Shown: piece by piece, positions 21,615 through 26,811 of the stretch
Numbering within the stretch: position 1 is the stretch's first letter
Layout of the letters: every line of letters begins with the position of its first letter
Assembly (NCBI GenBank): GCA_026004195.1
Contig: BPIQ01000003.1
Location: 124,001 to 188,000, forward strand
Source of the DNA: Candidatus Binatia bacterium
GTDB lineage: Bacteria; Desulfobacterota; Binatia; HRBIN30; BPIQ01
Length of the DNA: 64,000 bases
Direction of reading: 5' to 3'
The notes under the pieces: generated by a model
Database searches by the model: none
The model's input: only the letters and a program-made list of their open reading frames with translations
Told to the model about the DNA's origin: nothing
Made by a program: the position numbers and the translations under genes

Positions 21615-22998
21615 GTGAAGGCGCAAGTTCCGGGCATGCTCGGCGTCGACGAGCTCCGGGCACTGGTGCGTCAGGGGGAGATCGACACCGTGCTCGCCGT
21701 CTTCCCCGACCTCTACGGGCGGCTCGTGGGAAAGAGAATCACGGGGCGCTTTTTCTGCGAAGAAGTCCTCGAGCACGGCATGCACGCCTGCGACTACCTC
21801 CTCGCCTGCGACATGGAAATGGACCCCGTACCGGGGTACCGGTTCGCGTCGTGGGAGAAAGGGTACGGCGACATCCGCTGCGTCCCGGACCTCTCCACGC
21901 TCCGGCGGGCCGCTTGGCTCGAGCGGACGGCGCTCGTTCTCTGCGACGTCCACGACGAAAGGACCGGCGACCTCGTCGCCGTGGCTCCGCGCACCATCCT
22001 GCGCAGGCAGGTCGAACGCGCGCGGGCGGCGGGCTACGTGGCCATGGGCGGCTCGGAGCTCGAATTCTTCCTCCTGCGCGAAACCTACGAGTCGGCCCGC
22101 GAGAAGGGCTTCGACAACCTCGAACCCTTCGGGTGGTACGTCGAGGACTACCACATCCTGCAGGGGACCAAGGCCGAGCCGCTCGTCGGAGCCATCCGCC
22201 GTCACATGGAAAGCTCGGGCGTACCGGTGGAGTTCTCGAAGGGCGAGTGGGGTCCCGGGCAGCACGAAATCAACCTGCGCTACACGGAGTTCCTCGAGAT
22301 GGCCGACCGGCACGTCGTCTACAAACACGCGGCCAAGGAAATCGCAGCACGGCAGGGCCTCGCCGTGACCTTCATGGCGAAGTTCGACGACCGTCTCGCG
22401 GGGAACTCCATGCACCTGCATGCGAGCCTCTGGTCGGCCGCGGACCTCCGACCCCTTTTCGCCTCCGACGGATCCGGCTCGGGGCCGACCGACACCTTCC
22501 GCTGGTGGCTCGGGGGCCTCCTCCGTCACGCGCGCGCGGCCACGCTTCTCTTCGCGCCGTACGTGAACTCCTACAAGCGCTTTCGCGCGGGCTCTTTCGC
22601 CCCGACCAAGATCGCCTGGGCCCACGACAACCGTACGGTGGGCTTCCGCGTCGTCGGACGGGGAGCCTCGCGCCGCATCGAATGCCGAATCCCCGGAGCC
22701 GACGCGAACCCCTACCTCGCCTACGCGGCCACGTTGGCGGCGGGTCTCGACGGGATCGCCCGCAAGATCGAACCGCCCCCCGCCTTTCGGGGCGACGCCT
22801 ACCGGGCGGAGGATCTGCCCTCGGTGCCCACGAGTCTTCCCGAAGCCATCGCCGAATTCGAGGGCTTCCGCGCTCTTCCGCGAGGCGTTCGGGCCGGAGG
22901 TGGTCGAGCACCTCGTGCATTTCGCGCGGACCGAGCAGAGAAAATTCGAGGAAAGCGTGACCTCCTGGGAGCGACGGCGCTATCTCGAACGCGCCTAG
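21615..22998 (+). CDS. glutamine synthetase family protein (GlnT/PuuA-like), single-base frame break
   Basis: GTG start with GAGGAG 6 bases upstream; about 460 residues. Conserved elements are GGSELEFFLLRETYESA, the catalytic GEWGPGQHEINLRY, AGNSMHLHASLW, the ATP loop FRAGSFAPTKIAWAHDN and RIECRIPGADANPYLA. The sequence is of the gamma-glutamylamine synthetase (PuuA/GlnT) group. At 22865-22872 CTTCCGCG stands where CTCCGCG would keep frame; the reading continues in the +1 frame as FREAFGPEVVEHLVHFARTE to SWERRRYLERA and a TAG at 22996. One inserted T accounts for it, so the gene is either sequencing-damaged or a recent pseudogene. Its product probably glutamylates an amine, with the PuuD-like gene downstream. 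Confidence 0.85.
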
Positions 22999-23310
22999 GT
23001 GTGGGATCCACACACGTTGTTTCGGGTGGCATGCGCGAACTCCTAAAACCCACGCCCCGCGAGCGCTGGCGACGGTCGCCGTGGATGCGGTGGCCCACCT
23101 TGCCGATGCAGCCGAGGGGTTCGACGTCGAAGTGGAGGAGCTCGCCGGGCCTTCGGCGCTCGTAGCGGTGGGGGCTTGGAGGTCTCCAGCAGCGAAAGTC
23201 GCCCGAGGCCCAGGTGACGGAGGACCCCCGCCTCCGTGGACCCACTCTCCATGGGGATCCCGGGTGGCCTTCAAGCCCTACCCACCGACACAACGCGTTC
23301 GGGCTCCACA
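22999..23310 (-). mobile_element. internally deleted IS481-type element A
   Basis: Inverted ends: left GTGTGGGATCCACACACGTT, right complement GTGTGGAGCCCGAACGCGTT, each next to CTAG. The minus strand retains a piece of the IS481 transposase core domain, RPGELLHFDVEPLGCIGKVG then HRIHGD, which contains the first catalytic Asp in its usual LLHxD context. The N- and C-terminal parts of the transposase are missing, so it cannot move alone. Confidence 0.7.
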
Positions 23311-23532
23311 CCTAGGGGAACCGGGCTAGGGGTCAGAATTGCGTATGTGGCGTAACTGGAGTGCAACCTGGGCTTGACCTTCTCCTGGGTTCGTGGTGTA
23401 GGGCGCCGAAACGACACCGGTCGGACAGGCAGTGACCGGGCGGAGCCGATCTCTTCTCGATCATGCCGCGGCCGAGCTCGCTGGCTTGAGCGGAGGGCGC
23501 CTCCTCCGTGCACTGCGGAAAGGAGGCTGCCA

Positions 23533-24783
23533 ATGGTCGAGCGGAAAGTGTCGGCACGGAAGCGGGGACGGTACCGGGCTCGGGTGTGGTCGGTGGGGAT
23601 GGTAGCGAGCCTGTGGGCGCTGTCGGCGTTCGGGGCAGACTACGTCGTGACCACGACGGCGGACTTCCTCGACAACACTGACAACCAGTGCTCCCTGCGC
23701 GAAGCGATTCAAGAAGCGAACGACGGGCCGGATACTGACTGCGCTGGCTCACCGAGCAATGGCGACGACACCATCACCTTCAGCGTGAGCGGGACGATCG
23801 TGCTCGGCTCGACGCTGCCGGACATCGCAGATGCGGGCACGGCGGGCAAGCTCACGATTGACGGCAGTGGCCAGACCATCACCATCAGCGGGAACAACAG
23901 TGTGCTGGTGATGCGTGTTAATTCCGGCGCGGACCTCACCCTGCGCAACCTGTCCATCGCCGAAGGGAGCGCCGACTTCGGCGGCGGCATCCGCAACGAC
24001 GGTACGCTCACGATCATGAGCGCCACGCTCTCCGGGAATGTGGCGGGCGATTTTATTGCCCTTGTCGGCGGCGGCGGCGGCATCTTCAACGCTGGCTGGG
24101 CGAGCGTCATCAATAGCACTTTCTCTGACAACAAGGGCGTGCGAGGCGCCGGCATCCTGAACGTTGGCACGCTGACAATCATCAACAGTACCTTCTCCGG
24201 CAACAACGCGCCGACCACAGGCGGCGGCATCCGCAACGAAGGCACGCTGACGCTCAAGAACACCATCGTTGCCAACAGCCCGAGCGGTGGGAATTGCTCG
24301 GGCACGATCACCGATGGTGGGGGGAACCTGAGTTGGCCGGACGCGACTTGCCCCGGTATCAATCAAGACCCCACGCTCGGCCCGCTGGAGAATAACGGCG
24401 GTCCGACCCAAACCCACGCGCTCTTGGCGGGCAGCGCCGCCATCGACGCCGTCACGGACTGCACCGACACGAGCGGGAATACGATCTCGACCGACCAGCG
24501 CGGCATCTCCCGACCGCAACCCGCAGGCGGCCAGTGCGACGCGGGGGCTTACGAATTCCGACGGATAGAAGACGATACGGGCGACCGTGCCTGCAGCGAC
24601 GGGTCAGACAACGACTCCGATGGGCGCACCGACTGTGCCGACCCGGACTGCGCGACGAGCGTGCGTTGCGCGGCACCGATGCCGGCAACGGGCTGGGGCC
24701 GCAAGGTACTCTTGGTGACGCTGCTGGCCGCCTTGGGAATCCACGCCCTCTCGCTCCGCCTTGCTGCCCGCCAGCAGGGCTAG
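23533..24783 (+). CDS. exported CSLREA-motif beta-helix protein, element cargo
   Basis: 416 residues; ATG with AGGAGG 8 bases ahead. Signal peptide to about 38 (LWALSAFGAD). NQCSLREAIQEANDGPDTDC is a CSLREA domain, followed by parallel beta-helix coils (GGGIRNEGTLTLKNT, INSTFSGNNAP). ENNGGPTQTHALLAGSAAID is the choice-of-anchor Q type ending, then DGSDNDSDGRTDCADPDC, a calcium-binding DxDxDG loop, and a sorting-type tail MPATGWGRKVLLVTLLAALG with basic residues. Such proteins are cell-surface anchored; the ligand is unknown. The gene looks less GC-rich than its neighbours (by eye) and lies between two deleted IS481 copies, suggesting acquisition. Its TAG stop is part of the CTAG that bounds element B. 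Confidence 0.82.
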   Translation: MVERKVSARKRGRYRARVWSVGMVASLWALSAFGADYVVTTTADFLDNTDNQCSLREAIQEANDGPDTDCAGSPSNGDDTITFSVSGTIVLGSTLPDIADAGTAGKLTIDGSGQTITISGNNSVLVMRVNSGADLTLRNLSIAEGSADFGGGIRNDGTLTIMSATLSGNVAGDFIALVGGGGGIFNAGWASVINSTFSDNKGVRGAGILNVGTLTIINSTFSGNNAPTTGGGIRNEGTLTLKNTIVANSPSGGNCSGTITDGGGNLSWPDATCPGINQDPTLGPLENNGGPTQTHALLAGSAAIDAVTDCTDTSGNTISTDQRGISRPQPAGGQCDAGAYEFRRIEDDTGDRACSDGSDNDSDGRTDCADPDCATSVRCAAPMPATGWGRKVLLVTLLAALGIHALSLRLAARQQG

Positions 24784-25169
24784 GTGCGGGATCCACACAC
24801 GCTGTTTCGGGTCCCGAGCGTAAGGACAGTTAGGGGAGGGGTCATTCCCAGGGAGCGATGAGGTCGTCGTTCGTTGTAGTACCGAAGCCACGGCCAGAGC
24901 GCTGGGGTGCGACGGGTCCGCAGGCGCAGGGCCACGATCTGGGGGATCCGCTCCTGGGGAACCGGGCTCCGCAGCCGGCTCGGGCGCGAGGAGCGGTCGC
25001 AGAGACCCGAAGGGCTTTCCTCCCGGTAGCGCCTGTGCCACTTGCGCACGGTGGTCTCGCTCAGGTGGAAGGCCCTTGCCACCCGCCCGACCGACCAGCC
25101 CTCCTGCAGTCGCCGGATCCTGGCCACCCTACCATTCGGTGCCAGCTTTGCGTTACAATGAATTGTCAT
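24780..25169 (-). pseudogene. IS481-type transposase with the catalytic core deleted
   Basis: 129 codons. Residues 1-65 are the IS481 DNA-binding region (GWSVGRVARAFHLSETTVRK and SPSGLCDRSSRPSRL). After about residue 80 the sequence jumps to the C-terminal motif RYYNERRPHRSLG. About 200 residues with the DDE triad are missing. The frame stays open because the deletion is in phase, so a DNA-binding fragment could still be made. Confidence 0.8.
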
Positions 25170-25279
25170 TCGGGGTCCTCCTCTGGAGTGGAGTTTGTTC
25201 CTCCAACCCTATTGTCCATAGGGACCCCGGGTGGCCTTCGAGCTCTCCCCACACGACACAACGTGTTTGGACACCACAC
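24784..25279 (-). mobile_element. internally deleted IS481-type element B
   Basis: Left end GTGCGGGATCCACACACGCT, right complement GTGTGGTGTCCAAACACGTT, each beside CTAG. The minus strand encodes the transposase N-terminal helix-turn-helix domain joined directly to its last segment (YYNERRPHRSLG). The catalytic core is absent. Orientation is the same as element A. Confidence 0.75.
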
Positions 25280-25290
25280 CTAGGCACGCC

Positions 25291-25989
25291 GTGGATCGCA
25301 GGCCCCGGATCGGAATCACCTCCTATCCGAGAGAAGAGGGGGCCTTCAGCCTTCCCGAAGGCTACGTCGACGCGGTCCGCCTCGGCGGCGGCATTCCCCT
25401 CGTACTCCCGCCCGCATGGGATCGGCCGTCGGAGGTCCTCGAAGCGCTCGACGGCCTCGTGCTCGCCGGAGGCGGAGACCTCGAGCCGGCCCGTTACGGT
25501 GGGGACGACCACCCCGAGGTCTACAAGGTCCATCCCGAGCGGGACGCCTTCGAACTCGAGCTTTTGCGGTCGGCCCTCGAGCGAAAAGTCCCCGTTCTCT
25601 GCATTTGCCGGGGCATGCAGGTGCTGAACGTGCTGCGGGGCGGTACGCTCCACGTCGACATACCCGACCGTGTCGGACGCGAAGTGGTCCACCGCCTCCC
25701 GCCGCGGCGTCCGACCCGCCACCCTGTTCGCCTCGCACCGGAGAGCCGGATCGCCCGCATCGTGGGCCGCGAGGAACTCGACGTCGTATCCTGGCACCAT
25801 CAGGCCATCGACAAAGTGGGCCGAGGACTCCGGCCCGTCGCCTGGTCGGAGGACGGCCTCGTCGAAGCGTTCGAGGTCGAGGACCACCCCTGGGCACTCG
25901 CCGTGCAATGGCACCCCGAAATGCAGCTCGACGACGAGAGCCAGAGGAAACTCTTCCTCGAGTTCTGCTCGGCCGCCCGCCGCCGGTAG
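25291..25989 (+). CDS. gamma-glutamyl-gamma-aminobutyrate hydrolase family protein (PuuD-like)
   Basis: A 232-residue class I glutamine amidotransferase-like hydrolase. It starts MDRRPRIGITSYPREEG, has the nucleophile Cys106 in CICRGMQVLNVL, and the His-Glu pair in AVQWHPEMQ. PuuD-type enzymes cleave gamma-glutamyl-GABA or related gamma-glutamyl amides, the step after glutamylation by a glutamine synthetase-like enzyme. The GTG at 25291 is chosen; an in-frame upstream start would begin inside the IS481 end. Without the insertion the gene would begin 7 bases after the synthetase stop. Substrate is unproven. Confidence 0.88.
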   Translation: MDRRPRIGITSYPREEGAFSLPEGYVDAVRLGGGIPLVLPPAWDRPSEVLEALDGLVLAGGGDLEPARYGGDDHPEVYKVHPERDAFELELLRSALERKVPVLCICRGMQVLNVLRGGTLHVDIPDRVGREVVHRLPPRRPTRHPVRLAPESRIARIVGREELDVVSWHHQAIDKVGRGLRPVAWSEDGLVEAFEVEDHPWALAVQWHPEMQLDDESQRKLFLEFCSAARRR

Positions 25990-26031: not shown

Positions 26032-26811
26032 GTGGCCGGGCGGCTCGAGAACAAGGTAGCGCTCGTCACGGGCGCCGCGGGCGGAATCGGGAGCGCGTCG
26101 GTGCGCCTTTTCGCCCGTGAAGGCGCTTCGGTCGTCGCGGTCGACCTGGACGAAGCAAGAGGCGAGGCGCTGGTTCGGGAGATCCAGGGTTCGGGAGGAC
26201 GCGCCGCGTTTTTCCGGGCGGACGTAAGCCGCGCGCAGGACGCCCGTGCCATGGTCGAGTTCGCCGAGAGCACCTACGGGCGGCTCGACGTGCTCTTCAA
26301 CAACGCGGGCATCTTTCCCGCCGAAGACGGCTCGGTGCTCGACACTCCCGAGGAAGTCTTCGACCGCGTGCTCGCCGTGAACCTGAAGGGCGTGTTCCTC
26401 GGCTGCAAGCACGGGATCCCGGCGCTCTTGCGCTCGGGAGGTGGTTCCATCGTCAACACGGCGAGCTTCGTCGCCGTGATGGGGTCGGCGACCTCGCAGA
26501 TCGCCTACACGGCGTCGAAGGGCGCGGTACTTTCGTTGACCCGCGAGATCGCGGTCGAGTTCGCGCGGCGCAACATCCGGGCCAATGCTCTCTGCCCGGG
26601 ACCCGTCCGCACGCCGCTCCTCGCCGAACTCCTGCGCGACCCCGAGGCGCGGGCGCGCCGGCTCGTGCATCTACCGATGGGACGTCTCGCGGAGGCAGAA
26701 GAAGTGGCCCGGGCCGCTCTTTTTCTCGCCTCGGACGAGTCCTCGTACGTGAGCGGCGCGACGTTCCTCGTCGACGGGGCCGCGACGGTCGCCTACGTGA
26801 CCCCCGAGTGA
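26032..26811 (+). CDS. short-chain dehydrogenase/reductase
   Basis: 259 residues from GTG. Motifs: TGAAGGIG (NAD(P) binding), DVSRA, NNAG, the catalytic Ser region VNTASF and YTASK, and CPGPVRTPLL. The Asp after strand 2 (VDLDE) suggests NAD preference. It is likely the third gene of the glutamine synthetase-PuuD operon, possibly oxidising or reducing an amine-derived alcohol or aldehyde; the substrate is not known. Its end overlaps the convergent hslR gene. Confidence 0.9.
   Translation: MAGRLENKVALVTGAAGGIGSASVRLFAREGASVVAVDLDEARGEALVREIQGSGGRAAFFRADVSRAQDARAMVEFAESTYGRLDVLFNNAGIFPAEDGSVLDTPEEVFDRVLAVNLKGVFLGCKHGIPALLRSGGGSIVNTASFVAVMGSATSQIAYTASKGAVLSLTREIAVEFARRNIRANALCPGPVRTPLLAELLRDPEARARRLVHLPMGRLAEAEEVARAALFLASDESSYVSGATFLVDGAATVAYVTPE

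Follow-up and report, generated by a model that had tools for sequence, protein, structure and literature searches.

Insertion sequences of the IS481 family that target CTAG are known from several bacteria, described here as in the accessible parts of the cited papers. IS481 of Bordetella pertussis inserts at NCTAGN and duplicates 6 bp (PMC3053399, citing Stibitz 1998). ISLxc2 of Leifsonia xyli, 1,105 bp long and present in 16 copies, also has NCTAGN as its target and ends in TGTG...GACGTTGGT (PMC2516522). TnRErm46/ISRe46 of Rhodococcus equi belongs to the IS481 family, is bounded by NCTAGN repeats, and carries cargo; it is inserted at parB, where the repeat supplies the parB stop (PMC6794481). 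The literature search, as far as the accessible texts extend, returned no account of an IS481 composite carrying a CSLREA gene.

The window analyzed here is a 64,000-nucleotide stretch from the genome of a Candidatus Binatia bacterium. Within it, 2,285 extra bases separate the stop of a glutamine synthetase (GS) gene from the start of a PuuD-like gene. From left to right, the inserted segment holds one IS481-like copy with deletions (A), a gene with CSLREA and choice-of-anchor Q domains (X), and another deleted IS481-like copy (B). The arrangement is real, but ordinary for a mobile element of a kind already known.

Architecture of the inserted segment

The features of the locus are collected in Table 1. 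As the preliminary description had noted, CTAG stands at 22995-22998 and at 25280-25283, with the GTG start of the PuuD-like gene, at 25291, seven bases past the second. With the insert taken out on paper, CCTAGG runs into CACGCC and then the GTG start, in line with the earlier proposal that deletion restores a single CTAG and a compact operon.

Table 1. Features of the GS-PuuD locus (positions in the window)
Feature	Position	Strand	Evidence
Glutamine synthetase-like gene; frame change near 22,865, last ~41 codons in other frame	21615..22998	+	Pfam Gln-synt_C, E 1.3e-88 on 21615-22872
Left outer 6-bp duplication CCTAGG; holds ancestral GS stop	22994..22999
Element A, IS481-like copy with deletions; keeps both ends and a middle transposase fragment	23000..23310	-	Repeats, protein comparison, end pattern
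CCTAGG at inner (right) end of A	23311..23316
Gene X, putative exported protein with CSLREA and choice-of-anchor Q domains and acidic double-disulfide-like tail	23533..24783	+	ORF and profile matches
GCTAGG at inner (left) end of B; stop of X on +, of transposase remnant on -	24779..24784
129-aa transposase remnant ORF (LZ_Tnp_IS481/HTH and last part of rve_3)	24780..25169	-	ORF and profile matches
Element B, IS481-like copy with deletions; keeps both ends and a transposase N-terminus joined to a C-terminal scrap	24785..25278	-	Repeats, profile and protein comparison
Right outer 6-bp duplication CCTAGG	25279..25284
PuuD-like class-I glutamine amidotransferase (Peptidase C26)	25291..25989	+	Pfam, E 1.2e-59
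Short-chain dehydrogenase/reductase (SDR), third gene of conserved order	26032..26811	+	Pfam, E 1.7e-68

The outer inverted arms (22990-23029 and 25249-25288, 40 nt) are 85% complementary. Direct repeats join the left ends of A and B (22995-23027 and 24780-24812, 33 nt, 94%) and their right ends (23241-23285 and 25208-25252, 45 nt, 82%, with a further pair of 31 nt at 87%), indicating that A and B are two short copies in the same orientation. Their ends differ by 6-14%, so they are not the product of a recent duplication. By the repeats and the genome-wide end-pattern search, two insertion sequence copies bracket a cargo gene, which is the layout of a composite transposon. An identical 13-mer shared by 23315-23327, immediately right of A, and 24956-24968, inside B, was discarded as being of the size expected by chance in such G+C-rich sequence.

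The duplicated target is better read as the 6-bp CCTAGG than as CTAG. The outer pair (CCTAGG/CCTAGG) and the pair belonging to A (CCTAGG/CCTAGG) match, whereas that of B (GCTAGG/CCTAGG) is mismatched. An intact relative in the locus L044, from another genome of the order, has GCTAGA on either side and the ends TGTAAC...GCAACA, so the duplication length for such elements is 6 bp, NCTAGN, as published for IS481, ISRe46 and ISLxc2. Both the outer pair and the pair of A take this form, which is that of the CTAG-targeting IS481 subgroup. Movement as a unit agrees with the outer pair, while A alone fits well and B alone fits poorly.

TGT is found at both outer ends and at the right end of A, and the inner left end of B reads TGC. 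Three other CTAG-flanked IS481 copies (L044, L077 and L083) share 12 invariant columns across their six ends; of these columns, the outer ends here retain 10 and 9, and each inner end retains 8. This difference is small and rests on three or four bases, and the yardstick is narrower than six ends imply, since L077 and L083 are from the same genus and have near-identical ends. A ranking by the genome's own end pattern (outer ends 0 mismatches, inner ends 2) was set aside because that pattern was built from the same ends; the gap over the 12 columns is smaller.

A and B retain different fragments of the transposase. The ORF in B scores 35.1 bits against LZ_Tnp_IS481, above the cut-off of 22.2, and 72.9 bits against NF033577 (cut-off 224), with positions 4-77 and 255-283 covered, representing fragments and not a whole protein. 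It also keeps the last 20 positions of rve_3. Its N-terminus is 40% identical to the intact L044 transposase, and the TAG that ends it comes from the left CTAG of B. One stretch of element A is 54% identical to residues 121-174 of the L044 transposase and another, in a different frame, matches residues 101-135; together they correspond to approximately residues 101-174 of the 309-aa relative in more than one frame. Judged by the DDE layout, the catalytic core is presumably missing from B and mostly missing from A. No intact IS481 transposase was found in A, in B, or in the genome (98.94% complete), where rve_3 and NF033577 matched only B. These repeats and transposase fragments confirm two deleted IS481-like copies with inverted ends around a gene for a putative exported protein, as first described, and A and B appear to be relics of the IS481 family. 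Given their differing fragments and no intact IS481 transposase found in the genome, the A-X-B unit looks dead.

The catalytic part of GS and its conserved C-terminal tail lie in different frames. The tail ends at TAG 22996-22998, and the unshifted frame continues to 23165, inside A. In relatives, the tails are in frame. The frame change is either a real lesion or an assembly error; if real, GS would read across the CTAG into A and stop at 23165. The preliminary description placed the insertion exactly at the GS stop codon, and the CTAG does hold a TAG, but with the frameshift near 22,865 it ends only the ancestral GS frame.

The cargo gene

Gene X matches the CSLREA (39.4 bits, cut-off 25) and choice-of-anchor Q (81.5 bits, cut-off 25) profiles, and its tail resembles an acidic double-disulfide repeat at 36.1 bits, under the cut-off of 41. 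No Pfam family matched X. Its N-terminus reads, by eye, as a putative signal peptide, and its stop is the TAG of CTAG 24780-24783. The X leader is present at a single place in the genome; three other partial X matches were found, two of them in one 647-aa frame at 352 kb of contig C3 and one at the end of contig C4.

Matches to X at 1e-20 or better occur in 30 of 145 genomes of the class, including the present one, so X is of a kind common in the class. The G+C content over X (0.64-0.67) is near that of its surroundings, leaving no foreign mark on it. Searches of viral contigs returned one weak match to the tail, and plasmids gave 18 records, all below 60%. In the 29 other class genomes, the X homologs stand elsewhere. 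One order-level relative (G006) has 13 X matches over several contigs, a possible expansion of CSLREA-type surface proteins.

The uninterrupted operon in related genomes

The PuuD loci of 29 relatives were compared, 15 of which (11 order-level and 4 class-level genomes) have GS upstream. The 58 genomes searched included none of the same genus or family, the nearest relatives being order-level. SDR lies downstream of PuuD in all 15 loci with GS upstream, and the remaining 14 of the 29 have neither GS nor SDR inside the stretch compared. Neither X nor the transposase was matched in any of the 29 loci, including all 15 with GS beside PuuD. The GS-PuuD-SDR order of these 15 supports the earlier view that an IS481-type segment at CTAG parts an operon.

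In 11 of the 15 junctions, including all seven in which GS is 72-75% identical, PuuD has an in-frame start no more than 35 bp from the GS stop; the gap is ~140-355 bp in three, and one holds an assembly gap of Ns. The search for an uninterrupted junction proposed in the preliminary description found compact spacing in these 11, and X or transposase between the genes in none of 15. Its companion expectation, that intact loci carry CTAG at the synthetase stop, held in part: this was so in 2 of the 15 relatives, neither of them among the seven closest. The missing CTAG weighs little, because the relatives are only order-level and the stop codon varies among them.

Other copies of the element

The genome searched spans 3,632,936 bases in 6 contigs and is 98.94% complete. 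At up to 3 mismatches, the end pattern found five ends, four at this locus and one at C4:137516, with none for a reversed control pattern; as the pattern was drawn from these same ends, the count is informative and the scores are not. C4:137516 was considered as a third full element and rejected: the genome-wide search revealed no right end at that site, leaving a solo left end. Of the other copies to be searched for according to the preliminary description, the present genome yielded this solo end and no second A-X-B. The solo left end follows GCTAGC, and by eye a CTAG ~280 bp on is the stop of an acyl-CoA dehydrogenase-like ORF.

The end pattern gave no match in the genome-contig collection or in viral contigs, collections from which records of the present genome may be omitted. 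A protein scan of the genome-contig collection for other carriers of the element produced 108 stretches matching the peptide pattern, with no relative confirmed among them, and the plasmid search returned five records, all below 60% identity and covering at most 63% of the query. In the phylum, 41 of 395 genomes match in the IS481 survey at 1e-60. The CTAG pair stands at both ends in 2 (L077 and L083) of 30 fetched loci (L076-L105), and other IS481 subgroups in this survey target elsewhere. The intact copy in L044 (1413-2451) has a perfect GCTAGA duplication, the left CTAG of which is the stop of a 59-aa ORF.

CTAG sites and stop codons

In 264 kb of the genome (the window plus L066-L075), CTAG is counted 68 times where trinucleotide frequencies predict 223, ~0.3 of expectation or an approximately 3-fold depletion. 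By a home-made gene caller that got the GS region wrong, the 63 CTAG sites lying outside the locus divide into 17 stops of called genes, 13 sites inside genes, and 33 between genes, so that 50 of 63 are intergenic or at called stops, though non-coding bases make up 17% of the 264 kb by the same caller.

A related insertion sequence from a different genus, with matches in 21 of 149 genomes and CTAG at 35 of 56 ends, provided a test of stop-codon preference. In this set, an ORF of at least 60 aa is closed by 10 of the 35 CTAG-bearing ends, compared with 42 of the 114 background sides; at 100 aa the counts are 8 of 35 and 25 of 114, with no enrichment of stops at either length. The depletion of CTAG, the share of stops in the background, and the lack of enrichment together indicate that CTAG preference alone explains landing at a stop.

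The locus neatly illustrates how an insertion sequence can settle at gene ends without harm when its four-letter target is scarce within genes. A general testable prediction for CTAG-targeting elements follows, and both the principle and a cargo-bearing precedent are already published. We consider it improbable that CTAG-targeting IS481 composites act as low-damage gene-delivery units. On that reading, the depletion of CTAG inside genes would tend to steer them to gene ends and intergenic sites, the stop would be regenerated, and an operon would acquire an extra cistron, for instance one for a surface protein, with no gene broken.

Origin of the insertion

The preferred account, with a rough probability of 0.65, is that a composite transposon-like A-X-B, made up of two CTAG-targeting IS481-family copies around a surface-protein gene, entered the GS-PuuD-SDR operon at a CCTAGG containing the GS stop. 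Transposition of A-X-B as one unit is favoured, though not proven. It is suggested by the identical outer 6-mers next to the unequal pair of B, by outer ends that score above the inner ones, by 15 of 15 relatives free of X and transposase between GS and PuuD, by the single occurrence of the X leader, and by X homologs that stand elsewhere in the 29 other class genomes. Against it, the flanks of A match equally well, and A alone could be the insertion; the inner and outer ends differ by few bases, A and B diverge at their ends, the nearest relatives are order-level and lack CTAG at the GS stop, and the genome yielded no second A-X-B. The claim that a complete insertion history can be read from the locus was overstated, as the CCTAGG/CCTAGG flanks of A fit a single-copy insertion equally and the steps cannot be ordered for certain.

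Under the preferred account, A-X-B would have moved whole, probably by the copy-and-paste route proposed for IS481 elements. Duplication of 6 bp on insertion would have regenerated the stop with no coding sequence lost. Both insertion sequence copies would then, or already, have carried large and different internal deletions, removing the transposase and fixing the insertion. The move would have preceded the deletions, unless the transposase acted from elsewhere. The insertion may also affect the expression of PuuD and SDR.

Stepwise assembly in place, whereby one insertion sequence entered at the GS stop (CCTAGG) and X with the second copy joined later through insertion sequence recombination, is fairly unlikely, even though it predicts both the perfect flanks of A and the perfect outer pair, and A and B share one orientation. 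A circle carrying X and one insertion sequence would give equal inner 6-mers, yet CCTAGG and GCTAGG differ by one base, which is not decisive.

Two independent insertions, at the GS stop and at the X stop, around an X already lying between GS and PuuD would accord with the frequent use of CTAG as a stop in this genome (17/63 sites by the home-made caller). They would also accord with the position of B, exactly at the X stop and 7 bp upstream of PuuD, an arrangement that would result from a native X-PuuD junction as well. This history is distinctly unlikely: X is absent from the GS-PuuD junctions of 15 of 15 relatives, so it would have had to arrive anyway, and the duplication belonging to B is mismatched.

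A dedicated stop-codon-targeting transposon recognizing gene ends beyond CTAG is very improbable, for although GS, X, and the 59-aa ORF beside the L044 copy all end at a target CTAG and TnRErm46 at parB is a published case as far as the accessible text goes (PMC6794481), the other-genus test weakened it, and the third site in this genome, C4:137516, is not a recognizable gene stop.

Comparison with known systems

In the accessible parts of the reports, B. pertussis IS481 shares the family, target, and duplication length with A-X-B, but is a simple insertion sequence with no cargo in the reported case (PMC3053399). ISLxc2 shares the IS481 family, NCTAGN, and the end type with A and B, while no composite is described for it there (PMC2516522). 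In ISRe46 and ISLxc2, as in B, the transposase stop TAG lies inside the duplicated target (PMC6794481, PMC2516522). The L044 copy, from the same order, resembles A and B in its related transposase, its 6-bp NCTAGN duplication, and its site at the stop codon of a short ORF, but is single, intact, and cargo-free.

TnRErm46 resembles A-X-B in its IS481-family transposase, its cargo, NCTAGN, and TGT ends with CGTTG at 16-20. It differs in being an active, 6.9-kb element with one transposase at one end, whereas in the present unit two decayed copies flank one gene, with no intact transposase. As described in the accessible text, TnRErm46 is a published precedent for a cargo-bearing IS481-family unit at a gene stop (PMC6794481).
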